DNA of 57,100 bases from a virus, in IMG/VR virus record IMGVR_UViG_3300043540_000139, positions 1 through 57,100 of that record, one strand, 5' to 3'. The translations under genes were made by a program, and so were the position numbers. Shown piece after piece: positions 9,816-40,526 of the stretch. The notes beneath the pieces are model-generated. The model had not been told where the DNA came from, did not search any database, and was given only the letters and a program-made list of their open reading frames with translations. The stretch's first letter is position 1. The number at the start of each line of letters is the position of its first letter.

Positions 9816-10481
9816 ATGAAATTTAATTTTCTAACAGATAGGAAGAAGGTTAATGCAATTAATGCAATTGTTAATAAAGTAACTCACAAATATAATAAAG
9901 CAATTATAAAAGCAGCTAATTTAGTAAGAACAGCACACAAAAATAACAAATCATTTTGGTTAGCGGGTTATCTTGCACAAAACAGAAGAACAATTGAAGG
10001 TGAAGCAAGAGATGAAATTGAGAAATTAGAATTAACCTATCCAGAAAAAGCAGATGCAGGATTACAAGTATTAAGAAATTTAGATGATATTGATAAGAAA
10101 TATTTTGGTCATCCACAAATTCCTAATATGTGGGACTGGGTAAATGGTAATAATAATTGGAAAAAACTTTTAGGAGAAAATAAAATTATAAAAATAACCA
10201 AATCACAACTTAAAGAAATTATTAGGGAAGTAATATTAAAAGAAAATAATGATAAATATGATATGTAATTATATTTTGTAAAAGGTGATAAGACAGTAAC
10301 AAATATCAGCCAAAACTTTAAAGATGCCGAAAAAGCACTTAAAGGACATAATACTTATACACAGAATAAATTTGGATATGGAAGTTTATATGTTTGTAAT
10401 GTAAAATCAAAAGATTGGAAAGCAAATAAAATAACAAAAGATTTCTTCCAAAATCAGTTAGCATTTCTAATATGCAACTGA
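9816..10481 (+). pseudogene. Leader-type gene interrupted by an in-frame TAA (10266-10268)
   Basis: The first frame (9816-10268, strong AAGGGGG ribosome binding site) encodes 150 mostly helical residues. It ends with a leader-like motif KITKSQLKEIIREVILKE, then TAA. The same frame continues after the stop for 70 codons of good coding character (YFVKGDKTVTNISQNFKDAE onward) to TGA at 10479-10481. So the motif stands at the N-side of a second domain, as leaders do elsewhere here. Either a nonsense mutation cut a fused two-domain protein, or the stop is read through. Confidence 0.6.
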
Positions 10482-10506: not shown

Positions 10507-12768
10507 ATGGCAGTTGAATTAAATAATACGGATATACAAGCCCAAAGATTAAAAGAAATTATAAGATACCGCAAAGACCCTATTGCATTTTTAAAAGAAC
10601 AATGCAAAATTAAACATCCACGCAGGGGTATTATACCATTTGAATTATTCCCAGCACAAGAAGATTGTATTAAAAATTTTATAAATCATCGTTTCAATAT
10701 TGTATTAAAATCCAGACAATTGGGTATAACAACTATTGTTGCTGGTTATTGCACTTGGCGTATGGTATTCTTTCCACATCAGGAAATTAGAGTTGTTGCA
10801 ACCAAAAATGAAACAGCACAAATTTCAATTGAAATGGCTAATACAATGGTAGACAACATTGAACCTTGGATATTATCTATGCTTGGTGCAATTAGAGCTA
10901 CTGAAAGAAAACATACAGTAGAATTGTTGAATGGTTCTCGTATGTCAGCATTTGGACAAGCCAGAGGAAGTAATCCCGATACTGGTGTTGGTAGATCATT
11001 ATCTTTATTAGTAGTTGACGAAGCAGCACTTATTCCTAATATGACAGATATTTGGACATCAATTTATCCAACACTTTCACAGGGTGGAAATAGTTGTGAT
11101 GAAAATACAATAATTTTTACCGATAAAGGTTTATATAGAATTTCTGATTTAAATCCAACTCAAAATTTATCAGAAGGATTTTATGATTTAAAAAATATTA
11201 ATGTTATAAATAAAAATAATAAACCAGAAAATGCATTAAGTTATCATATTTCAAAACCTATATTAGGAAATAAAATTTATTTTGATAATGGTAATTTTAT
11301 TATTGTTTCTGATGAACATCCATTATTATGTAATTTTGATAATGAAGAGTTTTGGAAAGAAAGTAAAGATATAAAAATTGGTGATACTATAGTAGGACAA
11401 TATAATCAAAATGTGTTTGGTAGTTTAATAAAATATCCAGAATTTAAAAACTATCACAATATAAGAAAAAATTATGAAATGAATAATATTGATTTTTCTT
11501 ATCTTTGTGGATTGTTTGTTGCAAAAGGAAACTTAATTAAGAAAAACACAAAACCTTATGCAATTAATATTACCAATGGAGACGTTGATATTCAAAATTG
11601 GTTGAGAAACAATAAATTTAAAAAAATTGATGATAGACATTTTAGATTAACAAATTCTTATGCAACCGAAAAATTAATATTTTTAGGTTGCAAAGAATAT
11701 TCCAAAAACAAAACAGTGCCTAACAAAATATTGTCTTCTACAAAAGAAGAACAAATTTCATTCTTACAGGGATTGTTTGACGGTGATGGATGTTCAAGTG
11801 GAAATATGATAAAGTATGATTCTGCATCCGAACAATTAGTTATAGATGTTCATACAATGTTATTGAATTTTGGTATTATATCATCTATAAAGAAAATAAC
11901 CCAGAAACCAACAAAACTTGTAAAAAAATATAATGGAACTGGTTATGAATTAAGGATATACGGTGAAAATACAAGAAAATTTTATGAGATTATAGGATTT
12001 AGATTGCAAAGAAAACAATTAAATTATAATAAAATAAAAGATAATAAAAATTTTAGTTTATATAACATTTCCGACAAAAATAATTTTAAAACAATGGCTC
12101 AAAAAAGCGGATATGTTTTGTATCATTCCAAGAACAATAATAATAAAAAATATTTAAGAGACTATATAAACATAGAAAGATATTTATACACTAAAAATGA
12201 TAATATATCTAAACATTGTGCAAATGTAATTTTGGATATATACGATAAAGATTTAGAAGAACATAAAATATTTAAAGAAGAAGTGTCTAAACAAGAAAAT
12301 AATACCAAACTATATTTAAAAGTTTCGCATATAGAAAGAACAAAAATAGAAAAACCAATGTATGATTTTATTGTTCCGAACACACACTCTTTCGTTGGGA
12401 ATGGAATAATAAACCATAATTGTATCGTTTTAAGCACTCCCAGAGGAACTTCAAACTGGTTTTATGATACTTTCCGTAAAGCAGAAGATAAAGACTATAA
12501 AGAAGGTGAAATTCCATTTCACCCAATAAAACTTATGTGGTGGGAAAATACAGAAAGAATGAATACACCATTAGAACCAGATGAAAGTATTCCCGGTGGA
12601 TATACTAATCAATGGGCAAGGGCAACTTTTGCTAATTTGACATTAAAACAAATTGCACAAGAATATTGTGTTTCAGAAAATACTATGGTTACTATTAGAA
12701 ATAAAGAGAATAATAATATAGAAACAATTTCTATAAAAGAATTGAAAGAGAGGTTAAAAAATGAATAG
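10507..12768 (+). CDS. gp17: Large terminase fragment 1: ATPase domain, cis-intein, and N-half of a split intein
   Basis: Residues 1-196 are the N-terminal TerL ATPase. They have a deviant Walker A, KSRQLGITT at 68-76 (the lysine sits at the front and the usual GK lysine is Ile), and a Walker B, LLVVDEAA at 167-174. A contiguous intein fills 197-638. Residues 639-720 resume TerL (STPRGTSNWFYDTF, the coupling motif, to KQIAQEY). At 721 an intein-type Cys begins a 33-residue N-intein half that ends at a stop. TerL packages DNA into the prohead. The gene lacks the nuclease domain, which is encoded in two further genes downstream. Confidence 0.93.
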   Translation: MAVELNNTDIQAQRLKEIIRYRKDPIAFLKEQCKIKHPRRGIIPFELFPAQEDCIKNFINHRFNIVLKSRQLGITTIVAGYCTWRMVFFPHQEIRVVATKNETAQISIEMANTMVDNIEPWILSMLGAIRATERKHTVELLNGSRMSAFGQARGSNPDTGVGRSLSLLVVDEAALIPNMTDIWTSIYPTLSQGGNSCDENTIIFTDKGLYRISDLNPTQNLSEGFYDLKNINVINKNNKPENALSYHISKPILGNKIYFDNGNFIIVSDEHPLLCNFDNEEFWKESKDIKIGDTIVGQYNQNVFGSLIKYPEFKNYHNIRKNYEMNNIDFSYLCGLFVAKGNLIKKNTKPYAINITNGDVDIQNWLRNNKFKKIDDRHFRLTNSYATEKLIFLGCKEYSKNKTVPNKILSSTKEEQISFLQGLFDGDGCSSGNMIKYDSASEQLVIDVHTMLLNFGIISSIKKITQKPTKLVKKYNGTGYELRIYGENTRKFYEIIGFRLQRKQLNYNKIKDNKNFSLYNISDKNNFKTMAQKSGYVLYHSKNNNNKKYLRDYINIERYLYTKNDNISKHCANVILDIYDKDLEEHKIFKEEVSKQENNTKLYLKVSHIERTKIEKPMYDFIVPNTHSFVGNGIINHNCIVLSTPRGTSNWFYDTFRKAEDKDYKEGEIPFHPIKLMWWENTERMNTPLEPDESIPGGYTNQWARATFANLTLKQIAQEYCVSENTMVTIRNKENNNIETISIKELKERLKNE
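11095..12420 (+). other. Intein 1 of the terminase (442 aa, LAGLIDADG type)
   Basis: The intein starts with Cys after GGNS and ends INHN before Cys (CIVLSTPRG), giving standard Cys1, terminal His-Asn and Cys+1 splice residues. Removing it joins SQGGNS to CIVLSTPRG, the TerL segment between Walker B and the coupling motif. Two endonuclease motifs are visible. LCGLFVAKG has Lys where the acidic residue should be and LQGLFDGDG is intact, so cutting activity may be lost while splicing residues remain complete. Confidence 0.92.
12667..12765 (+). other. Split intein 2, N-terminal half (33 aa)
   Basis: It begins CVSENTMVTI after the terminase residues QIAQEY and carries only intein block A plus a basic/acidic tail before the stop. 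The very short N-half is the layout known from atypically split inteins such as AceL-TerL, also found in a phage terminase. Its partner is encoded in the next gene, whose ATG overlaps this stop by 8 nt. Confidence 0.88.
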
Positions 12769-13279
12769 TGTATTAAAAGGATACAATACTATTAATAAAA
12801 CATTAAATGAAAATGATTTATTTGAATTACAAGAAACTATTGATATACTTAATAGAAATAATTTTTGGAAAAATACAAAATATGAAGTGTTAACTCCGAA
12901 TGGATATTTACCTTTTGATGGATTAAAACAAGTAAAATCAGATTTGTATAAATTTTATTTAGAAGATGGTAAAGTTTTAGAAGCTACATTAGACCATATT
13001 GTAGAAACAAAACAAGGAGATTTATCTATTATTGATTGTTATAATAATAATTTAGAATTAAAAACTTTAGAAGGTTTTACAAAAATAAACAAAATAGAAA
13101 AAATAGGATTAGATTATGTATATGATTTAGTTAATGTAAAAGATATACATAAATATTACACAAATAATATTGTATCTCATAATTGTTGTGTTTCTGGTGA
13201 TACTTTTGTTCAAATACAAACCAAAGATGGAGTAGTTTTCAAAACCAGAATTGATGAATTAGAAAGATTTATTTTATAA
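12761..13279 (+). CDS. Terminase fragment 2: C-intein half, one extein cysteine, N-intein half
   Basis: This 172-residue product is almost pure intein. Residues 1-141 are a C-terminal intein half (block F-like YDLVNVKDIHKYYTNN, ending IVSHN). Residue 142 is a single Cys that is terminase sequence. Residues 143-172 begin again with an intein Cys (CVSGDTFVQI) and form the N-half of another split intein. After two trans-splicing reactions only Cys142 would remain, giving QEY-C-C-NF, which matches the QE(H/Y)-x-C-x-F motif of T4-like TerLs. Its start overlaps the previous gene. Confidence 0.9.
   Translation: MNSVLKGYNTINKTLNENDLFELQETIDILNRNNFWKNTKYEVLTPNGYLPFDGLKQVKSDLYKFYLEDGKVLEATLDHIVETKQGDLSIIDCYNNNLELKTLEGFTKINKIEKIGLDYVYDLVNVKDIHKYYTNNIVSHNCCVSGDTFVQIQTKDGVVFKTRIDELERFIL
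13187..13276 (+). other. Split intein 3, N-terminal half (30 aa)
   Basis: It starts at the second of two adjacent Cys codons and reads CVSGDTFVQI, then a turn and ELERFIL before the stop. It is closely similar in pattern to split intein 2 N-half and to the AceL-TerL N-half. The partner C-half lies 1.1 kb downstream at 14426-14779, with small genes between. Confidence 0.88.
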
Positions 13280-13532
13280 TACCAAATCCAGAAAAATATA
13301 ATATGTATTTTAATAATAATCCGATGATTATGGAACTAGAAGTTGAATCAAAAAACACATAAAGTATAAAAAAATATTAATTGATGTTTATAATCATAGT
13401 TTGTTTATATATGGAGACAATTCTTCTTATGTTGGGAAAGTAACTAAAATAGTTTTTAAAGATAAAAAGACTAATCAAATAGTTATGACATTTAAAAAAA
13501 GGGATAATGAATCCCTAATGGAGGACATAAAT
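13280..13532 (+). pseudogene. Remnant coding sequence between split intein halves
   Basis: No intact gene is present. Two frames show coding-like residues: IPNPEKYNMYFNNNPMIM then stop (about 13283-13362), and, after a shift at an A-rich run, KYKKILIDVYNHSLFIYGDN continuing to KKRDNES (about 13363-13507). Together they read as one protein broken by a frameshift, perhaps debris of an element that once filled the gap. A GGAGG ribosome binding site for the next gene is at about 13520-13524. Confidence 0.4.
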
Positions 13533-13934
13533 ATGACAGTTAAAATTAAAAAATCCGAATTGAAAAAACTTATTAAAGAAGAACTTGGGAAAATGATGTC
13601 TCTTCCAACATTTAGTTTATTGGGTGGTGCAAAATCAAAAGTATGGGAACAATCAGCAACTCCAGATGAAGTGGCAGAAATAGAAAAAGAACTTCCAAAA
13701 TTACCTTTAAATCATATCGCTGGAATAATTAAACAAGATTGGAAAAATGTATGGTTTGGTGCAAAACCATATTTAGATGCTTTGTTTTCATTAAATAGTA
13801 TTAAAGATAATTATGGATCAGACAGTGGTTTAAGTATAGTTGCATATTTTCTTTCTAATGCAGCACAATGGAAGGGTCCGGTAGCAAAGATTGTAAAAAA
13901 AGAATTAAAAAAAAGATTAAAGAATGGTAGATAA
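13533..13934 (+). CDS. Leader-bearing small protein inside the terminase fracture
   Basis: The ATG at 13533 is chosen over upstream starts because a GGAGG box lies 8 nt before it and the product then begins with the leader KIKKSELKKLIKEELGKMM. The leader ends in I-K-E, a (L/I)-x-E cleavage-type site. The remaining about 110 residues are unfamiliar, helical at the end, with a GIIKQDWKNVWFG segment. It lies between the halves of split intein 3. A virion-internal role is inferred from the leader only. Confidence 0.65.
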   Translation: MTVKIKKSELKKLIKEELGKMMSLPTFSLLGGAKSKVWEQSATPDEVAEIEKELPKLPLNHIAGIIKQDWKNVWFGAKPYLDALFSLNSIKDNYGSDSGLSIVAYFLSNAAQWKGPVAKIVKKELKKRLKNGR

Positions 13935-14082
13935 ACTCGTTCATATCATTGAAGTAATAGTTGTAATTTTGGGAATTGCGAGTTTAGTTTCTTTTGTAGT
14001 AGTATTAATTTGGTGGTTTGTAGAATTAAAAATAGATGATAATGAAAACATTAATTCAAACATTAAAAGAAGTAAAAAGTAA
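13924..14082 (+). CDS. Small single-pass membrane protein (52 aa)
   Basis: The start codon overlaps the end of the previous gene in another frame. The product has one strong hydrophobic stretch (about residues 8-33, IEVIVVILGIASLVSFVVVL then IWWFV) followed by a polar tail (KIDDNENINSN). It overlaps the next gene by 41 nt. The compact overlap and clear membrane helix support a real gene, possibly holin-like or a membrane-associated early protein, but no family is recognised. Confidence 0.5.
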   Translation: MVDKLVHIIEVIVVILGIASLVSFVVVLIWWFVELKIDDNENINSNIKRSKK

Positions 14083-14314
14083 ATTTGCTTCAGATGAAGT
14101 TAAGATTGAAGAAGACTTAACTAAATTTTGGGTTACTTTTATTTGGCAAAATGGATGGGAAACAATATCAAGACATAGATTTAGAAAAGATGCAGAAGAA
14201 ATTAAAGAATTAATATTAAAAAACAAAACACCTTTGGAAATAAAAAATGTTATAGATAAACAAAATAAGACTAGGTTTTCCAAATGGGTTGCTCCATATT
14301 GGGTAAATTGGTAA
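14042..14314 (+). CDS. Small leader-type protein (90 aa)
   Basis: The product starts MKTLIQTLKEVKSKF, a class II leader with L-K-E, followed by an alpha/beta-looking segment EEDLTKFWVTFIWQNGWET and a Lys/Glu-rich helix. The ATG at 14042 is preferred to 14036 because it puts MKTL at the N terminus as in the other leader proteins. It lies inside the terminase fracture. Function is unknown. Confidence 0.55.
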   Translation: MKTLIQTLKEVKSKFASDEVKIEEDLTKFWVTFIWQNGWETISRHRFRKDAEEIKELILKNKTPLEIKNVIDKQNKTRFSKWVAPYWVNW

Positions 14315-14318
14315 AACA

Positions 14319-14425
14319 ATGAAAATAAAAAAATCAGAATTGAAGAAAGTAATTAAAGAAATCTTGTTTAAGTTGGCAAAGATATAGCTTCTATGAAGAA
14401 AGAATTAATTAAAGATAGAAAATAA
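14319..14425 (+). pseudogene. Frameshifted leader gene just before the last terminase fragment
   Basis: The frame opens MKIKKSELKKVIKEILFKLAK and stops at 14385-14387. In the neighbouring frame coding continues as VGKDIASMKKELIKDRK to TAA at 14423-14425, so one indel near 14370 broke the gene. The leader is nearly identical to those at 13533 and 35141. The TAA abuts the ATG of terminase fragment 3. Confidence 0.55.
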
Positions 14426-14779
14426 ATGATACAAGAAAAATTCATAAAGAATAATAAAAAAGTAAAAGTATTAACACAGGATGGTTATAAAGACTTTTCT
14501 GGTGTAAGGAGTTTATATAAAAAAGTTTTATATGTAATTACTTTTACCGATAATACCGAAATAAAAATAACTGATAATCATATATTATTCTTACCAGATG
14601 ATAAAGAAATATCTGCAAAAGAATTGATGATTGGAGACCAATTAAAATCTAAAAATGGTTTGAAAACAATTTCTTCAATAACAGTTTCAGGTAATCTTGT
14701 ATCTGGTTTTAAAGTGTTTGATTTGGTAGATGTAAAAGATGTAAATACATATTATACCAATGATGTTTTATCACATAAT
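14426..14779 (+). other. Split intein 3, C-terminal half (118 aa)
   Basis: It has its own ATG and shows KVLTQDGYKDFSGVRS near the start, a TEIKITDNHIL block B-like element with the catalytic His, and ends FDLVDVKDVNTYYTNDVL then SHN before Cys+1. Its length (118) and beginning match C-halves of atypically split inteins such as AceL-TerL. The N-half is in the previous terminase gene at 13187-13276. Confidence 0.9.
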
Positions 14780-16885
14780 TGCAATTTTAATTTATCCGGT
14801 GAAACTGCACTTGAACCCGAAAAACTTAACTTTATTAGGGAAAATTATACCAAAGAACCGATTGCAAAAGAAGGACCTAATCAGGAATTGTGGATATGGC
14901 GTTATCCAGAAACAAATAAAAATTATATTTGTTTACCAAGAGGGGAAAAAATTCTAACAAATTCTGGTTTAAAAAACATTGAAGAGGTTACCAATCAAGA
15001 AAAATTATATGATATAAATGGTAATATAACAGATATTGTTGAAATCAAGAAAAGAAATTACGATGGTGATATTTATGAAATATTTTTACACACACACTTT
15101 AGAAGCAATAAATTTACAGATGAACATCCTGTTTATGCGAGTAAAGAAAACAAATTATTTAGAAATTATAAAACAAATCACGATAAATATAAATTTAATG
15201 AAAGATATAGAATATTTTCTTTTAAGTATATTGAAAGTAAATATTTAAAAATTGGGGATTGGGTAAAATATCCTAATATATATAAGAACAATATTTTGAA
15301 TGAAAAACAAATTTTACAAAAATTTGACAAATATTCGGAAATTGGTAGAACTGATTTTAAAATTAAAGATAAAAATTTTATTTTGGATAAAGATTTTTGG
15401 TGGTTAGTTGGTTTATGGTTAGCAGAAGGTTGGATTGAAAACGGATATAATAATGACAAATCTATTCTTTTTGGTTTGAATATAAATGAAACAGAATATT
15501 CAAAAAAAATATCTATTATTGTTAATAAATTATTTGGTAGAAAATTAACAATAACATCAAAACCCATAAACAATAGTATGATTTGTAAATTTAATTCTAA
15601 ACAATTAGCAATGTTTTTGTTTGACAATTTCGGTAAATATGCAAAAAACAAAGCAATACCAGAATGGGTTAAGTTTTTACCCAATGAATTAAAATTAAAT
15701 TTGATATATGGATATTATAATGGAGATGGATATTTAAAAAATAAATCAATTCCAAACAAACCACATACAGTTAATTTTGTCAGTGCTTCTTTAAATTTAT
15801 TGGAAGGAATTCAGGATATTTTATTTTCTTTGGGGATAATAAGTTCTTTACAAAAAATAACAAATGGTGGTATTGGTTTTATAAAAGACAGAAAGGTTAA
15901 TATTTCTGATAAATATAGTCTTGATCTTGGTGTATTTGATACCAATAAATTTTTAAAATTAAACAATGATATTCAATATTTAAATGACATTTTTTATAAA
16001 AGAAGAATTAGATATTGTTATTTTAGTGAAGATGAAAATTATATTTATTTTAAAATAAAAGGCATAAAAAAACATCAATATAATGGTGATGTATATAATT
16101 TTGAAACAACAGCACATTCATTTTTAGTAAGAGGTTTAGTTACACACAATTGTGGAGTAGACGTTGCAAAGGGTGATGGTTCTGACTTTTCTGCAGCACA
16201 AATTATATGTATGGAAACCTTTGAACAAGTTGCAGAATTTAAAGCAATGATAGATAAAGAAAGATTTGGACAATTGTTGTGCAAATGGGGGATGGATTAT
16301 AATGGAGCATTATTGGTAATTGAAGATAACTATGGCGAAAGAACAATTCAAAAAGTAATTGATTTACATTATCCAAATTTATTCTGGATGGATACAAAAT
16401 TCAAAGGATTAATATTTGATAATTTAGAAAAAGTAAAAATAAACAAAAGAAGTCCGGGTTGGCATACAACAGCCAAAACCAGACCTTTAATTCTTGAAAA
16501 TATTTTGAAACAATTGAGGGATTCCGTAGATGATGAATCTGGATTGGGTGGTATCACAGTTAGAAGCACCAGATTGTGTTCTGAACTTGAAACTTGGGGA
16601 TATTATGGTGGTAGATTAGACCACGCATCCGGGAAACATGATGACTTGATATTTGCAATGGCAATCGCTGCGTTTATCCAGACAGTTTATTCCAAAATAA
16701 CTGAAAGAGAAAATAGGGATGCTGTTGAATTCATGAAACATTTTAGTAATTCTGGAAAATTAGTTGATATGAATTTCGGTGTTTATGGAACAAATACAAG
16801 AAGTAGAAATATTATCAATCAATATGATGTGGATGGTGTTGATATTTCTTGGTTGCTAAAAGATAAACCTGATGAGGAGAAATAA
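14426..16885 (+). CDS. gp17: Large terminase fragment 3: C-half of split intein, cis-intein, nuclease domain
   Basis: Residues 1-118 are the C-half of split intein 3, ending LSHN. Residues 119-168 (CNFNLSGETALEPEKLNF to NKNYI) resume TerL, then a contiguous intein fills 169-575. Residues 576-819 are the TerL RNase-H-fold nuclease, with the metal-binding Asp in GVDVAKGDGSDFS, an acidic VIEDNYGE strand and the C-terminal HDDLIFAMAIA. Adding the extein parts of all three genes gives 573 residues, close to T4 gp17 (610). The start abuts the stop of a leader pseudogene and has no strong ribosome binding site. Confidence 0.93.
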   Translation: MIQEKFIKNNKKVKVLTQDGYKDFSGVRSLYKKVLYVITFTDNTEIKITDNHILFLPDDKEISAKELMIGDQLKSKNGLKTISSITVSGNLVSGFKVFDLVDVKDVNTYYTNDVLSHNCNFNLSGETALEPEKLNFIRENYTKEPIAKEGPNQELWIWRYPETNKNYICLPRGEKILTNSGLKNIEEVTNQEKLYDINGNITDIVEIKKRNYDGDIYEIFLHTHFRSNKFTDEHPVYASKENKLFRNYKTNHDKYKFNERYRIFSFKYIESKYLKIGDWVKYPNIYKNNILNEKQILQKFDKYSEIGRTDFKIKDKNFILDKDFWWLVGLWLAEGWIENGYNNDKSILFGLNINETEYSKKISIIVNKLFGRKLTITSKPINNSMICKFNSKQLAMFLFDNFGKYAKNKAIPEWVKFLPNELKLNLIYGYYNGDGYLKNKSIPNKPHTVNFVSASLNLLEGIQDILFSLGIISSLQKITNGGIGFIKDRKVNISDKYSLDLGVFDTNKFLKLNNDIQYLNDIFYKRRIRYCYFSEDENYIYFKIKGIKKHQYNGDVYNFETTAHSFLVRGLVTHNCGVDVAKGDGSDFSAAQIICMETFEQVAEFKAMIDKERFGQLLCKWGMDYNGALLVIEDNYGERTIQKVIDLHYPNLFWMDTKFKGLIFDNLEKVKINKRSPGWHTTAKTRPLILENILKQLRDSVDDESGLGGITVRSTRLCSELETWGYYGGRLDHASGKHDDLIFAMAIAAFIQTVYSKITERENRDAVEFMKHFSNSGKLVDMNFGVYGTNTRSRNIINQYDVDGVDISWLLKDKPDEEK
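14930..16150 (+). other. Intein 4 of the terminase (407 aa, LAGLIDADG type)
   Basis: The intein begins CLPRGEKILTNSG and ends GLVTHN before Cys+1 of CGVDVAKG. It therefore interrupts TerL three residues before the first catalytic aspartate of the nuclease. Both endonuclease motifs look intact (WLVGLWLAEG and LIYGYYNGDG), so homing activity is plausible. Confidence 0.92.
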
Positions 16886-18130: not shown

Positions 18131-21100
18131 ATGGCAAATTTTTGGGATAGACTAAATAATTTAGTTAGACGTAAAATTACCAGACGTAGAGTTCCAACAT
18201 CTGTTCCTTACGGGCAGACAGGTCCGGGATTTTATTCATCTCAGGTATTCGGTTCAAAATTGGCAACAAGTATTTATGAACATAATCTTCAATCAACAGC
18301 AGATAGATTGGCAAGAATTAGGGATTATGATGCAATGGATACCACACCAATAGTTTCAACAGCATTAAATGTTTATTGTTTAAGAAGGGGAACAAAAATA
18401 CCATTGTTAAATGGTAGTGTTGTAAAAATAGAAGAATTATTAAAGTTATCTAACGAAGAGTTAGATGGTGTATATGTTTATTCATATGACATTGGAAATA
18501 GAAAAATTACAAGTGGAAAACTTCTTAATGCAATGCAGACAGGAAAAAATGTAGAAATATGGAAACTAACATTAGATGATAATACTATTGTAGAAACAAC
18601 GCCAGAACATAAATTTATGTTAAGGGATGGTTCTTATAAAATGCTTAAGGACTTAAAAGAAAATGATTTTTTAATGCCATTTTATACTAAATTAAGCAAA
18701 AAAGAAGATGTAAAACACAACAACCATAAAGTAAAGAAAATAGAATTTTCTTGTTACGATGATGTATATGATTTAACAGTAGAAAAATATAGTAATTTTG
18801 CAATTGTTACTGATGATAAAAGAAACGGTATATTTGTTCATAATTCTGATGATGCTTCTTCTTATGGGGAAGATGGACAAGTTTTAACAATCAGTTGTAA
18901 TAATCAAAAAATGTTAGAAGATTTAGAATATCTATTCTACGATATTCTTAATGTTGATTTTAACATTTATCACCAAATTAGAACACTTTGTAAATATGGT
19001 GATAAATTTGAATTGCTTTCAATTGAAAAAGGTAAAGGTGTAACTGGAACGATTGCATTACCGACAGCAGAAATTGAAAGGGAAGAAGCGTATGATGGTG
19101 ATCCCACAAGTGTAAGATTCAGATGGGTTGCACAAATAGGTGCGGCTTATAATGAATTTCAGGTTGCACATTTTAGATTGATGGGTGATGATAATTTTTT
19201 GCCTTATGGAAGATGTTTAAAATGGGATTCTTATATTGAAACACCAACTGGATTTAAAATGATTAAAGACATTAAAATTGGTGATGAAGTTTATTCTTTT
19301 GATACAAAAACTGAAAAGAAAATTATTACAACAGTGAAAAATACTGTTTGTTCAGGTAAAAAACAAATATATAAAATAAAATCAAAAAATAATGAATTGG
19401 AACTATCAAAAGAACATAATATAATGATTTGGGATGAAATAGAAAATAAATTTAATTACAAAAATATTTATGATTTAAAAATTGGGGATAAAATAGTAAT
19501 AAATAAACAAACAATAACCGATAATGAAATTAAGCAATGTAAAAAATACGACAAATCAAATAGATTAACTGATGAATATATTTTAACACCTATAATTTCA
19601 ATTGAAAAAACAGATGATTTTGAAGACGTATATGATATATATATTGACGAACAAAATCATAATTTTTTTGCAAATGGTATTGTGGTTCATAATTCCGTAT
19701 TGGAATCTGGAAGAGGTATCTGGAAGAAATTGCAATTGCTTGAAGATGCTATGTTGATTTATAGAATCAGTAGGGCAGCAGAAAAAAGAGTGTTCCAAAT
19801 TGAAGTAGGTAATATTCCATTTGACCAGATTGAAAATTATATTGAACAACAAAGAAGTAAAATTAAAACAGAAACAATTATTAATCCTTCAACTGGAGAA
19901 ATTGATTTAAGGTATAGGGTTAGTGCTTTAACAGATGATTATTGGTTAGCAAAACGTGGTGATATGATGTCTACAATTGAAACATTACCAGGTGGATGTC
20001 TTGCTTTAAATACAAAAATTGCATTGCTTGACGGAAGAAATTTGGAATTACAAGAAATTATAAAAGAATATGAACAAGGAAAACAAAATTGGGTTTATTC
20101 TTGTAATCCAAAAACAGGTGAACCTTGTGTTGCACCAATTTCGTGGGCTGGAATTACAAAAAGAAATACACAAGTTTTGAAATTAACATTGGATAACAAT
20201 TCGGAACTGATAGTTACACCAGAACATAAAATGTTAAAAAGAAGTGGAGAATTCATATCTGCTGAAAAATTAAAGGTTGGTGATTCTCTTATGCCATTTG
20301 TTAGAAAAATAAATTCAGACAATACTTGGTTAGACGGATATGAAAAACTGTATGATAATAATTCAAATAAATGGGTATTTACGCACAGACTTGTGAAAGA
20401 ACAATTTAAGAATAATTTGATTAAGGAATTTGTGTTTGAGTCTAAATATCAAAATGCAATCAAGAATGTTATTCATCATAAAGATTTCAATAAAAGAAAT
20501 AATAATCCAAGTAATTTGGTAATGATGAATAATTTTGACCATTTAAAATTACATCAAGAATATTGTAGAAATCCATTTAGAAGAAAAGCAATCTCTTCCT
20601 CTTTGAAATATTTTTGGAAAAATCAACCAGATGAATATAAAACAGAAAAGAAAAATCAATTGGTAAATGGATTACAAAACAAATTTAAACAAAACCCAGA
20701 ATTCAAGAAAAAATGGTATGAAAAAGCAGGTAAAACTCAATCTTTTACAAAGAAAAACAACAAAGAAGTAAATGATAAAATAATTGAAAATAATAAACTG
20801 ATGTGGAGAAATGATGAATATAAAAATAAAATGATAAACAATAATTCAACAAGATGGAACAATCCAGAATTTAGAAAAAATACAAGTAAGAAATTTTCTG
20901 AAATAAAAAAATATAAATATGATTCTGTAATTCATAAATATATTGTGGATGCTTATAAAAATGGAAACGATGATGGCGACAAATTAGCAAAATGGATGAA
21001 TGAATCCGAAGAATTTAAAAACAAATTTTATGAATTAAATCCAATTGCAAAACATTATACAAAAGAATTCAAAAGAGGATTGGTAAGAAAAATTATTTGT

Positions 21101-22111
21101 GATTTAGGTTATGATGGGTTTAGAGATTTTAAAGAAAAAGTTCCAATGTTTAATCATAAAGTAATTAAAATTGAATGGTTGGAAGAAAAAATTGATGTTG
21201 GAACAATTACTGTTGATGGGGATGAAATATATACAAACAATCATACATTTGCTTTAAGTGATGCTTTAAATGGCTGTGCTATTTACGTTAAAAATAGCAA
21301 CCTTAATGATATTGAAGATGTTGAATATGTAAAACAACAATTGATTACATCTTTGGGTGTTCCAAAAGCGTTCTTGCAATTTGAAGATGATTTAGAAGGC
21401 AAATCATCTGCGTCCAAAGTTGATATGAGGTTTGCAAGAACTATACAAAGAATACAAAAGATTATGATTTCTGAATTTACCAAGATTGCAATTTTGCATT
21501 TGTTCGCAAAAGAAAAATATGATGAAAATGAAATTTTTAATTTTGAATTAAAGATGCATAATCCTTCAGCAATTATGGAATTAGGTAAATTGGAAATTAT
21601 GGAGAAAAGATTTGATATTTATAATAAAGCAGTAAACGATTCTAAGGCAATCAGTATGACAAAAGCCAAAAAAGAAATCTTGAATATGACTGATGAAGAA
21701 TTGAAAGATGAACAAAAGCAATTGGAAGTAGATGCTAAATTCAGTGCCAAAGTTCAGAAGTTAGCCGATCCTACCCAACAAGAAAGTGGTGAACAACCAA
21801 CTGGTGGAAGTTCAACTGAAAGTAGTGGTGGAGAAGAACAGGACAAATTATCTGATATGTTAGATAGTTTAGAAGCAGATAGTTTAGGTGGAGAAGCAAA
21901 CCCATCAATTAAACAATCTGATAAAGGAGAGTTAAAAACTGGTTCTGATTATGATTTGGCTGGTGATTCATTAAACGGTAGTATTCAACCTAATCCCGAT
22001 AAAGATGTTTTATTTGAAAACATTTTTTCAAAGAACGGGAAATTAAAACTGGTTGATTTTTTGAAGCAAACCAAATTAGATAATGGAGATAATTCAGATG
22101 AGCAAGAGTAA
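18131..22111 (+). CDS. gp20: Portal protein (gp20-like) carrying three inteins
   Basis: Extein residues total about 577 (T4 gp20 has 524). Landmarks are DYDAMDTTPIVSTALNVY, LEDLEYLFYDIL, RWVAQIGAAYNEFQVAHFRLM, SGRGIWKKLQLLEDAMLIYR, TDDYWLAKRGDMMSTIETLPGG and LNDIEDVEYVKQQLITSLGVP. The portal is the dodecameric ring at the head vertex through which DNA is packaged and ejected. Inteins occupy residues 83-238, 362-521 and 623-1055; all lie at conserved sites. The tail is acidic and Ser/Gly-rich. An AAGGA site precedes the ATG. Confidence 0.95.
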   Translation: MANFWDRLNNLVRRKITRRRVPTSVPYGQTGPGFYSSQVFGSKLATSIYEHNLQSTADRLARIRDYDAMDTTPIVSTALNVYCLRRGTKIPLLNGSVVKIEELLKLSNEELDGVYVYSYDIGNRKITSGKLLNAMQTGKNVEIWKLTLDDNTIVETTPEHKFMLRDGSYKMLKDLKENDFLMPFYTKLSKKEDVKHNNHKVKKIEFSCYDDVYDLTVEKYSNFAIVTDDKRNGIFVHNSDDASSYGEDGQVLTISCNNQKMLEDLEYLFYDILNVDFNIYHQIRTLCKYGDKFELLSIEKGKGVTGTIALPTAEIEREEAYDGDPTSVRFRWVAQIGAAYNEFQVAHFRLMGDDNFLPYGRCLKWDSYIETPTGFKMIKDIKIGDEVYSFDTKTEKKIITTVKNTVCSGKKQIYKIKSKNNELELSKEHNIMIWDEIENKFNYKNIYDLKIGDKIVINKQTITDNEIKQCKKYDKSNRLTDEYILTPIISIEKTDDFEDVYDIYIDEQNHNFFANGIVVHNSVLESGRGIWKKLQLLEDAMLIYRISRAAEKRVFQIEVGNIPFDQIENYIEQQRSKIKTETIINPSTGEIDLRYRVSALTDDYWLAKRGDMMSTIETLPGGCLALNTKIALLDGRNLELQEIIKEYEQGKQNWVYSCNPKTGEPCVAPISWAGITKRNTQVLKLTLDNNSELIVTPEHKMLKRSGEFISAEKLKVGDSLMPFVRKINSDNTWLDGYEKLYDNNSNKWVFTHRLVKEQFKNNLIKEFVFESKYQNAIKNVIHHKDFNKRNNNPSNLVMMNNFDHLKLHQEYCRNPFRRKAISSSLKYFWKNQPDEYKTEKKNQLVNGLQNKFKQNPEFKKKWYEKAGKTQSFTKKNNKEVNDKIIENNKLMWRNDEYKNKMINNNSTRWNNPEFRKNTSKKFSEIKKYKYDSVIHKYIVDAYKNGNDDGDKLAKWMNESEEFKNKFYELNPIAKHYTKEFKRGLVRKIICDLGYDGFRDFKEKVPMFNHKVIKIEWLEEKIDVGTITVDGDEIYTNNHTFALSDALNGCAIYVKNSNLNDIEDVEYVKQQLITSLGVPKAFLQFEDDLEGKSSASKVDMRFARTIQRIQKIMISEFTKIAILHLFAKEKYDENEIFNFELKMHNPSAIMELGKLEIMEKRFDIYNKAVNDSKAISMTKAKKEILNMTDEELKDEQKQLEVDAKFSAKVQKLADPTQQESGEQPTGGSSTESSGGEEQDKLSDMLDSLEADSLGGEANPSIKQSDKGELKTGSDYDLAGDSLNGSIQPNPDKDVLFENIFSKNGKLKLVDFLKQTKLDNGDNSDEQE
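18377..18844 (+). other. Portal intein A (156 aa mini-intein)
   Basis: It begins CLRRGTKIPLLNG after ALNVY and ends GIFVHN before Ser+1 (SDDASSYGEDG). Block B is visible as TLDDNTIVETTPEHKFML. The size leaves no room for an endonuclease domain, so it is a pure splicing element. Confidence 0.92.
19214..19693 (+). other. Portal intein B (160 aa mini-intein)
   Basis: It begins CLKWDSYIETPTG after LPYGR and ends GIVVHN before Ser+1 (SVLESGRG). The block ELELSKEHNIMIWD holds the block B histidine, and VYDIYIDEQNHNFFANG is block F. No endonuclease domain is present. Confidence 0.92.
19997..21295 (+). other. Portal intein C (433 aa) with HNH-type endonuclease
   Basis: It begins CLALNTKIALLDG after LPGG and ends AIYVKN before Ser+1. 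Block B is visible as SELIVTPEHKML. The middle holds an HNH-like core (VIHHKDFNKRNNNPSNLVMM, then FDHLKLHQEYC) and two W-x-N-x-x-E/P repeats typical of DNA-binding NUMOD-like modules (MWRNDEYK, RWNNPEFR). The penultimate intein residue is Lys instead of the usual His, a rarer but known variant; splicing efficiency could differ. Confidence 0.88.
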
Positions 22112-27900: not shown

Positions 27901-28182
27901 ATGCTTGATGCAAACAAAAAAATAAAAACACATAAAATAAAAGAATGGAGTAACAAAATGAAAGCAAGACAAATGCCAGATGGTTGGAACGAAAAAATAA
28001 GTCAAATATCAAGTAAACCGAAATCAGAAACACACCAAAAAAATATTGGTGTTTCCACAAAAAGGCATTGGCAAGATGATAATTTTAGAAATAAAATTAC
28101 AGAAACAAGAAAGGTTACTGTGAAGAAAAAGTGGAAAAATTTTCCTAACCAATATCAAAAAGGAGAGTTATATGAACAATAA
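27901..28182 (+). pseudogene. Homing-endonuclease DNA-binding remnant upstream of gp21
   Basis: The frame reads MPDGWNEKISQISSKPKSET, then HQKNIGVSTKRHWQDDNFRN and KITETRK. The NUMOD3-like S-E-T-H-Q-K and the KRHWQDDNFR repeat are typical of DNA-binding tails of HNH/GIY-YIG homing endonucleases. No nuclease core is present. It overlaps the start of the prohead protease by 11 nt. Confidence 0.5.
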
Positions 28183-29905
28183 TAATTTAATGCTTTTGAA
28201 AGAATACCGTATTTTGCAAACCAAAAATAATTTTATAGTTGAACATGTAGAAGAAGGATACGAAAAAATAATATTAAAAGGTAAATTGCAAGAAGCAGAA
28301 GCAATGAATCATAATGAAAGATGGTATCCAATGCCTATTCTTGAAAGAGAAATAGAAAATTTCAAACAACTTATTAGGGAAAATAGGTCTCTGGGTGAGT
28401 GTGTTACTCCTGATACAGAAGTGCTTACAATTAACGGTTGGAAACCAATAACTAATGTTGAAGTTGGAGAAAAAATATTTACTTTAAATTTAGATACAAA
28501 CGAAATCCAAATTCAAGAAAATGAAATTGTAACCGAAAGAGAACATAAAGAAGATATGATACATATTTATAATAATTCTTCATTAGATATGATGTTAACT
28601 CCAAAACACCAAGTTGTATTGTGGGATAGATATAATAGAAGTTATATTTTGACAGCACAAGAATTGATGGAAAAAATAAATTCAAATGATTCAAAAGTTA
28701 ATCATTCTTATATCAAAAAAGGTGGCGATTGGATTGGTGAAACACCAAGTGAATTTATAATTCCAAATTCTGAATTTAAAATTAAGCCAGAATTGTGGGT
28801 AGCTTTTCTTGGACTTTATTTGACAGAAGGATATTCTTATGAAACAAATTCAAAAGATTGCAATAAAAAAATAGTTGTTATCACACAAAAAGAACAAGAA
28901 GAAAAAGATATGATAAGAAGTTTGATTGAAGAAATTGGATTTGAATATACTGAATATATAAGAGAAAATGGTGAAACATCGGATTTTTATATTTACCAAG
29001 ATGAACTATATGAATATTTGTTAACACTTGGAAACTCAAAAGAAAAATATATTCCAAATGAAATAAAAAATTGGAATAAAAATTTATTATCAATAATGCT
29101 TGATTGGATGTTGATTGGTGATGGTAGAAATAGGCATAATTATAAAAATGAATCATTAAAAAAATATACAACAATATCAAAAAAACTTGCAGAAGATGTA
29201 TTAGAAATTATGATTAAACTTGGCAATGGTGGTTCTATAAGAACATATCAACCACAAGATAGATATATTGGCGATAGATTAATAGAAGGAACAAATAGCA
29301 ACTTACAATATACAGTATATTATAATACATCAAAAGGAATCTATCTTGATAGTAGGTTTGTAAAAGCAGAATCGGTTCCTTATAATGGAAATGTATATTG
29401 TGTTACAGTTCCGAATAAAACTTGGTTGATGAAATATAATAATAAAATTAATTGGACACATAATTGTGACCATCCGGATAATGCAATAGTCAATCTTGCA
29501 AATGTATCACATATTATTCGTGAATTATGGTGGAAAGGAAAAGAAGTTTGGGGTAGAATTGAATTACTGAATGGTCCAGACCCATACGGAACACCTTCGG
29601 GTAGAATATTAGAATCTTTGGTAAGACGTGGTGTTACACTTGGTATTTCTTCCAGAGGTATTGGAAGCACTAAAACTGACAGCGAAGGTAGAGAAATAGT
29701 GCAACCAGATTATCAACTTATTACTTGGGATTTTGTTTCCAATCCATCTACACATAATGCATTTATGTTGAAAGAAAATAGAACATATAAAACAAGTAGA
29801 AGTTTGACAACCGAAGAAAGAAATAAACTTAAATATGAAAAATTAAATAATGTTCTCAATACAACTTTAAGATATGAAAAAGATACTGGTATTTTTATAT
29901 TTTAA
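28172..29905 (+). CDS. gp21: Prohead maturation protease (gp21-like) carrying an intein
   Basis: The exteins (76 + 146 = 222 residues) match T4 gp21 in size (212). They show ERWYPMPILEREIENFKQLI, the catalytic His in DHPD (H434) and the catalytic Ser in GISSRG (S493 or S494). T4 gp21 sits in the prohead core, cuts scaffold and internal proteins at (L/I)-x-E sites and destroys itself. Here an intein splits the gene exactly between LGE and CDHPD, so activity requires splicing. AAAGGAGAG precedes the ATG. Leader-bearing genes surround it on both sides. Confidence 0.93.
   Translation: MNNNNLMLLKEYRILQTKNNFIVEHVEEGYEKIILKGKLQEAEAMNHNERWYPMPILEREIENFKQLIRENRSLGECVTPDTEVLTINGWKPITNVEVGEKIFTLNLDTNEIQIQENEIVTEREHKEDMIHIYNNSSLDMMLTPKHQVVLWDRYNRSYILTAQELMEKINSNDSKVNHSYIKKGGDWIGETPSEFIIPNSEFKIKPELWVAFLGLYLTEGYSYETNSKDCNKKIVVITQKEQEEKDMIRSLIEEIGFEYTEYIRENGETSDFYIYQDELYEYLLTLGNSKEKYIPNEIKNWNKNLLSIMLDWMLIGDGRNRHNYKNESLKKYTTISKKLAEDVLEIMIKLGNGGSIRTYQPQDRYIGDRLIEGTNSNLQYTVYYNTSKGIYLDSRFVKAESVPYNGNVYCVTVPNKTWLMKYNNKINWTHNCDHPDNAIVNLANVSHIIRELWWKGKEVWGRIELLNGPDPYGTPSGRILESLVRRGVTLGISSRGIGSTKTDSEGREIVQPDYQLITWDFVSNPSTHNAFMLKENRTYKTSRSLTTEERNKLKYEKLNNVLNTTLRYEKDTGIFIF
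28400..29464 (+). other. Intein in the prohead protease (355 aa, LAGLIDADG type)
   Basis: It begins CVTPDTEVLTINGW and ends NWTHN before Cys+1 of CDHPD. Block B is SLDMMLTPKHQVVLW, and the endonuclease motifs are FLGLYLTEG and LDWMLIGDG, both with acidic residues. The insertion is two residues before the catalytic histidine. Confidence 0.92.
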
Positions 29906-39773: not shown

Positions 39774-40526
39774 ATGCCAGTTACCCAAGTAAGAGGATAT
39801 AATGTAGTTCCGGGTGTTATTGATAATGCCTCTATGTTGATATTAACAAGTAATTGGATTTATTATCCAGAATCTGCTTCTGCTTGGAATTTCACTGTAG
39901 GCAATCAATTTATTTCTCAAACTACAACTGCTGCACCATTTGTTGTAAGTTCAACAAGTTTAGTAACTAATTTGAACGCACAATATATCAATGGTGTTTC
40001 TTTGTCATCTATTACGGCACAATCAACTTGGGGACAAATTTCTGGAACATTATCGGCACAATCAGATTTGTGGATTCAACTACAAGCCAGAAGTTTAACA
40101 TCTCACACACATACTTCATTCAGTAATAACATATCTATTATTGGTAACTTATCAGCAAATAATATTTATACTAATGGACAATTTATAAGTAGTGTTTCTG
40201 ATGGAACTGCCCCATTGGTAATAAGTTCTACAAGTGTTGTAAACAATTTAAATGCAAAATATCTTGATGGTTATTCAATTTCATCTTTGTTGTCACAATT
40301 TGTAAGATTAGAAAAACCAAGTGGATTAGTCAATGGAATTAATTTCACTTATACAATTACAGGTGGAACATTATTGACTTCCACAGAAACAGTTTATTAT
40401 AATGGTATTGCATTAGATCCAAATGATGACTATTCAATATCCGGACAAGTCATTACGCTTTTATTAGCAAGAGCACCCAACAATGGTGATAAAGTTCGTG
40501 TTAGTTATTTTAAACAGGTAACATAA
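39774..40526 (+). CDS. Fibre-like virion protein (250 aa)
   Basis: The Ser/Thr/Asn-rich product repeats a fibre motif: AAPFVVSSTSLVTNLNAQYI near 60 and APLVISSTSVVNNLNAKYLD near 147, of the type seen in tail-fibre shafts. The end is a compact beta domain (TYTITGGTLLTSTETVYYNG, LLLARAPNNGDKVRVSYFKQ). AGAGGA precedes the ATG. It probably forms part of a tail fibre or baseplate appendage. Confidence 0.7.
   Translation: MPVTQVRGYNVVPGVIDNASMLILTSNWIYYPESASAWNFTVGNQFISQTTTAAPFVVSSTSLVTNLNAQYINGVSLSSITAQSTWGQISGTLSAQSDLWIQLQARSLTSHTHTSFSNNISIIGNLSANNIYTNGQFISSVSDGTAPLVISSTSVVNNLNAKYLDGYSISSLLSQFVRLEKPSGLVNGINFTYTITGGTLLTSTETVYYNGIALDPNDDYSISGQVITLLLARAPNNGDKVRVSYFKQVT

Follow-up and report, generated by a model that had tools for sequence, protein, structure and literature searches.

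We report that the terminase (TerL) in the window, that is the whole stretch of DNA analysed here, a 57.1-kb IMG/VR virus record, is encoded by three open reading frames on the plus strand (genes 1 to 3), the exteins of which translate to 278, 1 and 294 amino acids. These add up to 573 residues, the total already given in a previous sequence-only reading of this DNA. Gene 1 (positions 10507-12768) encodes the N-extein in two segments (10507-11094 and 12421-12666) on either side of a cis intein of 442 aa with a LAGLIDADG domain (11095-12420, between GGNS and CIVLSTP), and the Pfam matches of this gene are Terminase_6N, Intein_splicing and LAGLIDADG_3. Its C-terminal end reads QIAQEY, followed by a first N-intein half, N1, with the sequence CVSENTMVTIRNKENNNIETISIKELKERLKNE, and a stop codon. 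N1 (12667-12768; 33 aa plus stop) starts with CVSENT and occupies what we refer to as site a (QEY/x, the slash marking the insertion point).

Gene 2 (12761-13279) comprises 172 codons, of which 171 specify intein. Specifically, it consists of a C-intein half, C2 (12761-13183; 141 aa, ending with SHN), a single-codon exon, TGT, encoding Cys (13184-13186), and a second N-intein half, N2 (13187-13279; 30 aa plus stop), which has the sequence CVSGDTFVQIQTKDGVVFKTRIDELERFIL, starts with CVSGDT and corresponds to site b (QExx/CxF). A ribosome-binding-site-like GAGAGG (12748-12753) lies 7 nt before the ATG of gene 2, and sequences of this type precede many other genes of the phage with similar spacing, e.g. 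at 39774. Gene 3 (14426-16885) opens with a C-intein half of 118 aa, C3 (14426-14779), which also ends with SHN and is directly followed by CNFNLSG of TerL; the C-extein (14780-14929 and 16151-16882) is interrupted by a cis intein of 407 aa with a LAGLIDADG domain (14930-16150, between NYI and CGVDVAKG). If N1 pairs with C2 and N2 with C3, the predicted spliced product across the junction would be IAQEYCCNFNLSG (QEY-C-CNF). The sequence-only reading had placed the same intein halves at the end of gene 1, on both sides of one Cys in gene 2 and at the start of gene 3, and translation together with the profile matches described below bears this out for all three genes.

To identify the N-intein halves, we searched all six frames of the window with an HMM whose training set was 20 natural split N-inteins of TerL. 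It matched N1 (E 9e-9) and N2 (E 3.5e-7), while the next best match had an E-value of 0.045; since a profile of natural N-halves picks exactly these two, they are not chance matches. Their lengths, 33 and 30 aa, can be compared with 27-46 aa (median 31) for natural split N-inteins, and both are short fragments that start with Cys1 at the end of an open reading frame, as in the AceL/Cat type. C2 and C3 matched CatC of the solved Cat atypical split intein (6dsl) with E-values of 1.9e-8 and 8.2e-18, respectively, and the sole PDB match of N2 was CatN, weak at E 0.087. According to an alignment of 18 C-halves, C2 keeps, among others, the invariant T45, H79, D122, H140 and N141, and the block B T..H, penultimate His, final Asn and Cys+1 of AceL/Cat-type C-fragments are present. 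Judged by these features all four halves belong to the atypically split TerL (AceL/Cat-type) inteins, and they are predicted to splice in trans. The AlphaFold model of gene 2 (mean pLDDT 87.6) has a Hint fold with Foldseek matches to gp41-1, NpuDnaE, Cat and VidaL; the fold is intein-like and the N2 strands are confident, and homology alone would yield such a fold.

Why the middle exon comprises one residue is given by the spacing in TerL. The joined 573 aa sequence covers 88-97% of cultured phage TerLs at 30-35% identity (best matches), and it is collinear with T4-type TerLs once the exteins are joined, with Terminase_6N present. Across the junction, QEYCCNFNLSG aligns without gap with QECDCNFLSSG and similar sequences, as was the case for 82 of the 90 intein-free relatives that were checked; in the other eight the gap is due to an extra upstream residue and the sequences still read QE-CD-CDF. 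The alignment accordingly shows no additional TerL residues in the middle gene, an outcome that the sequence-only reading had named as refuting. In all homologues examined, QE and the C-x-F position are separated by two residues. At site-b loci the N-intein begins after QE plus two residues, whereas N1 in the window begins after QE plus one, and the exteins align only if a single residue stands between QEY and CNF, hence an exon of one residue.

The spacing also bears on whether gene 2 might be a dispensable C-intein/N-intein cassette, with N1 spliced straight to C3. All four halves fall within one superfamily, and the N-fragments of GOS-TerL and AceL-TerL are reported to be interchangeable (PMC11766414), which counts for such a bypass. 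The product would however be QEYCNF, one residue short, with a spacing absent from every homologue examined, and the middle Cys is therefore needed. Moreover, C2 and N2 retain all splice-critical residues, and C2 shares only 34% identity with C3 and does not group with it. We consider a dispensable gene 2 very improbable.

C2 and C3 hold separate positions in a tree, with weak support. Given this and their 34% identity, tandem duplication of one intein was rejected as the origin of the arrangement. Placement of C2 in the Straboviridae site-a lineage was likewise dropped as unsupported (25-30% identity). Among the C-halves nearest to C2 by identity (about 45%) is one in Campylobacter phage NCTC12673 (2989-4320, the C-part of TerL), where an unannotated C-intein half precedes CAFID. 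The ends of C2 (13118-13185) and C3 (14714-14781) share 68 nt at 79% identity, the rest being far more diverged, and this likeness could reflect a conserved motif or local gene conversion. Since the source is a metagenomic contig from IMG/VR, such a stretch also invites the suggestion that two strain variants were joined in assembly, or that TerL is decayed or broken. This we find barely credible, because every junction residue and frame is intact, the exteins together make precisely a full TerL, a single 519-nt open reading frame contains the SHN-C-C-VSGDT junction, and the repeats are too short or too diverged to mislead assembly.

Genes 1 and 2 share 8 nt. Only across 12755-12768 are the two frames open together; this segment holds a run of six A (12757-12762), and one A fewer would join the frames. 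N1 and C2 would then constitute one cis mini-intein of about 172 aa, in which an error or mutation of a single base has disrupted the frame; TerL would be encoded by two genes, and the one-residue extein would be kept, flanked by a cis intein on one side and a split intein on the other. At TerL sites, cis forms whose linkers are short do exist (L099, L109 and L207). We nevertheless regard an indel as unlikely: N1 ends where natural split N-halves do (27-46 aa), gene 2 starts with an ATG of its own, preceded by the ribosome-binding-site-like GAGAGG, and there are 167 A/T runs of at least six inside open reading frames of the contig, yet the annotated structural genes that were inspected are intact. 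Neither is the overlap odd in itself, since overlapping genes for split-intein halves occur in the cultured phages EniLVp02 (about 31 nt), K469 (about 14 nt) and Serratia 92A1. The break between N2 and C3 is immune to this doubt because 1.1 kb with small open reading frames lies in between.

Sites a and b, one residue apart, are each independently used elsewhere. Atypical inteins, split or cis, fill site b in dozens of IMG/VR loci, always after QExx, and this site is also occupied in the cultured Vibrio phages Va1, EniLVp02, VP-1 and K469. A pattern search identified site a as occupied in cultured Aeromonas phage PX29 (QEH/CCRF), and it is also used in Serratia 92A1 and Providencia PSTRCR_127 (QEH/CAEF). 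The PX29 relative Aeh1 is uninterrupted (QEHLCRF), and Aeromonas Ahp1 has QEHCCQF without an intein. In no locus other than the window did we find both sites filled at once. In three loci a Cys at x directly precedes the site-b N-intein (QEYC/CVKGNT in L156; QEHC/CVAGDT in L113 and L176), a pattern that likely represents the situation prior to entry of a second intein at site a.

Taken together, we think it likely that this T4-type phage TerL is built from three polypeptides by two trans-splicing reactions with a one-residue middle exon. The sequence-only reading had proposed the product QEY-C-C-NF; the spacing, the two sites, the lengths of the halves and the ribosome-binding-site-like sequence of gene 2 speak for it, while the splicing itself we infer. 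It is also likely, if slightly less so, that gene 2 contributes only this residue and that the same Cys acts as +1 of one intein and -1 of the next in orthogonal reactions. N1 and C2 would pair and join QEY to the single Cys, and N2 and C3 would pair and join that Cys to CNF. By intein chemistry, a thioester would form between Cys1 of N1 and Tyr, the middle Cys would attack and Asn141 of C2 would cyclise, giving QEY-C; for the second pair, the thioester would link Cys1 of N2 to the middle Cys and be attacked by Cys+1 of gene 3, giving C-CNF. The +2 residue of the first intein would be Cys in either reaction order, and the -2 residue of the second would be Tyr or Asn, set by that order. As the latter residue varies and the Cat intein is reported to contact an N-extein residue during assembly (PMC11766414), the reaction order may matter.

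With respect to its origin, the arrangement would have arisen when atypically split inteins entered each of two adjacent insertion sites in TerL. The first to be invaded was probably site b, in a host with Cys at x (QEYC/CVSGDT...), and a second, distantly related intein would later have entered site a, where the Cys already present could serve as the required +1 nucleophile.

The order C-intein/extein/N-intein in gene 2 is that of SICLOPPS (PDB 5ol6 and 5ol7), which implies that C2 and N2 must be orthogonal. SICLOPPS is artificial and its partner halves cyclise the extein, whereas the halves in gene 2 belong to two different inteins. N1 might cross-react with C3, or C2 with N2 inside gene 2; a one-residue ring formed by self-cyclisation of gene 2 is not a plausible product. 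Mispairing of N1 and C3 would remove one residue from an essential motor, and pairing of C2 with N2 would lock gene 2 up in an unproductive complex. The locus hence lends itself as a natural experiment on orthogonality between two atypically split inteins that belong to one superfamily and occur in one cell.

AceL-TerL, GOS-TerL and the consensus Cat (6dsl; PMC11766414) likewise have an N-fragment of about 25-37 aa and a larger C-fragment and derive from phage TerL; for these one split intein per gene is described, whereas the window has two, one residue apart, and a C-half/Cys/N-half gene. PX29 (gp17A/gp17B; L229) shares the split atypical intein at site a and Cys at x, with the product QEHCCRF, but it uses site a only, has two genes and carries a homing-endonuclease-like region before the C-half. 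The TerLs of Vibrio phages Va1, EniLVp02, K469 and VP-1 share the use of site b, with adjacent or overlapping N and C genes; unlike the window they use only site b of the two and have no C-half/Cys/N-half gene. Three-part TerLs from IMG/VR (L142, and L103 in part) have the same C-intein/exon/N-intein middle gene, although the exon comprises 86-95 aa compared to one in the window. The metagenome search suggested by the sequence-only reading thus recovered the three-part layout, and no other one-residue exon. Two other IMG/VR loci (L101 and L185) were considered as split multi-part TerLs and discarded, since their frames run through; each has several cis mini-inteins at known split sites within one open frame.

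The searches for a second example were as follows. IMG/VR was scanned with SHN-C-C-V-x3-T and (V/L/I/F/M)-x-HN-C-C-(V/L/I/F/M)-x-G-x-T, and IMG/VR together with GTDB genomes with HN-[CST]-C-V-x-G-D-T, all of which demand particular motifs; pooled over the three patterns, we obtained chance matches and one ordinary cis intein, and no second one-residue exon. Nor did tblastn of 50,697 phage records return one. Two of the candidates considered were rejected: K469, one of the phages with matches over more than 80% of gene 2, has a split gene at site b and owes its alignment to the overlap there, and phage kaaroe (70% coverage of gene 2) has a C-half at another TerL site. TerL peptides searched against IMG/VR gave no close relative with which to see conservation of the layout. 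In the literature on adjacent or tandem inteins we found no one-residue exon; only haloarchaeal MCM (PMC10643990) turned up, a gene that likewise carries several inteins close to one another. These occupy separate sites in a cellular helicase, and the available part of that report describes neither one-residue spacing nor split halves. On the basis of these scans, which are limited by motif and may lack records very close to the window, the locus may be unique. Split TerL inteins, fractured genes and three-part TerLs were known already, and the use of both sites and the one-residue exon appear to be new.

At one residue, the middle exon may mark the smallest extein possible between inteins. 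Moreover, the locus would be a clean case of constructive neutral evolution, in which selfish elements tie an essential virus gene to an almost empty one, and it puts a tandem split-intein pair on offer for three-segment protein ligation.

Dassa et al. reportedly described, in 2009, a fractured gene with a homing endonuclease gene between its halves. Here, nothing lies between N1 and C2, and three small open reading frames on the plus strand lie between N2 and C3 (13485-13934, 13924-14082 and 14036-14314), the first of which corresponds to phrog_13953 of unknown function. Comparison of homing endonuclease families with the frames in 13485-14314 gave no match, so neither split has an identifiable endonuclease between its halves. 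Past the N2 stop, short stretches of the segment 13280-13484 are open in two other frames (e.g. YFIIPNPEKYNMYFNNNPMIMELEVESKNT); these may be what is left of a gene once inserted here, for instance an endonuclease since lost. A sequence coding for IKKSELKK(L/V)IKE is repeated at 13536-13580 and 14316-14360, at the starts of small open reading frames between the TerL pieces, and a similar motif closes the 9816-10268 open reading frame. Downstream, the T4-type portal gene (18131-22111) has three inteins, which brings the total for TerL and portal to seven, and the prohead protease gene (28172-29905) also has an intein, with a LAGLIDADG-like domain.
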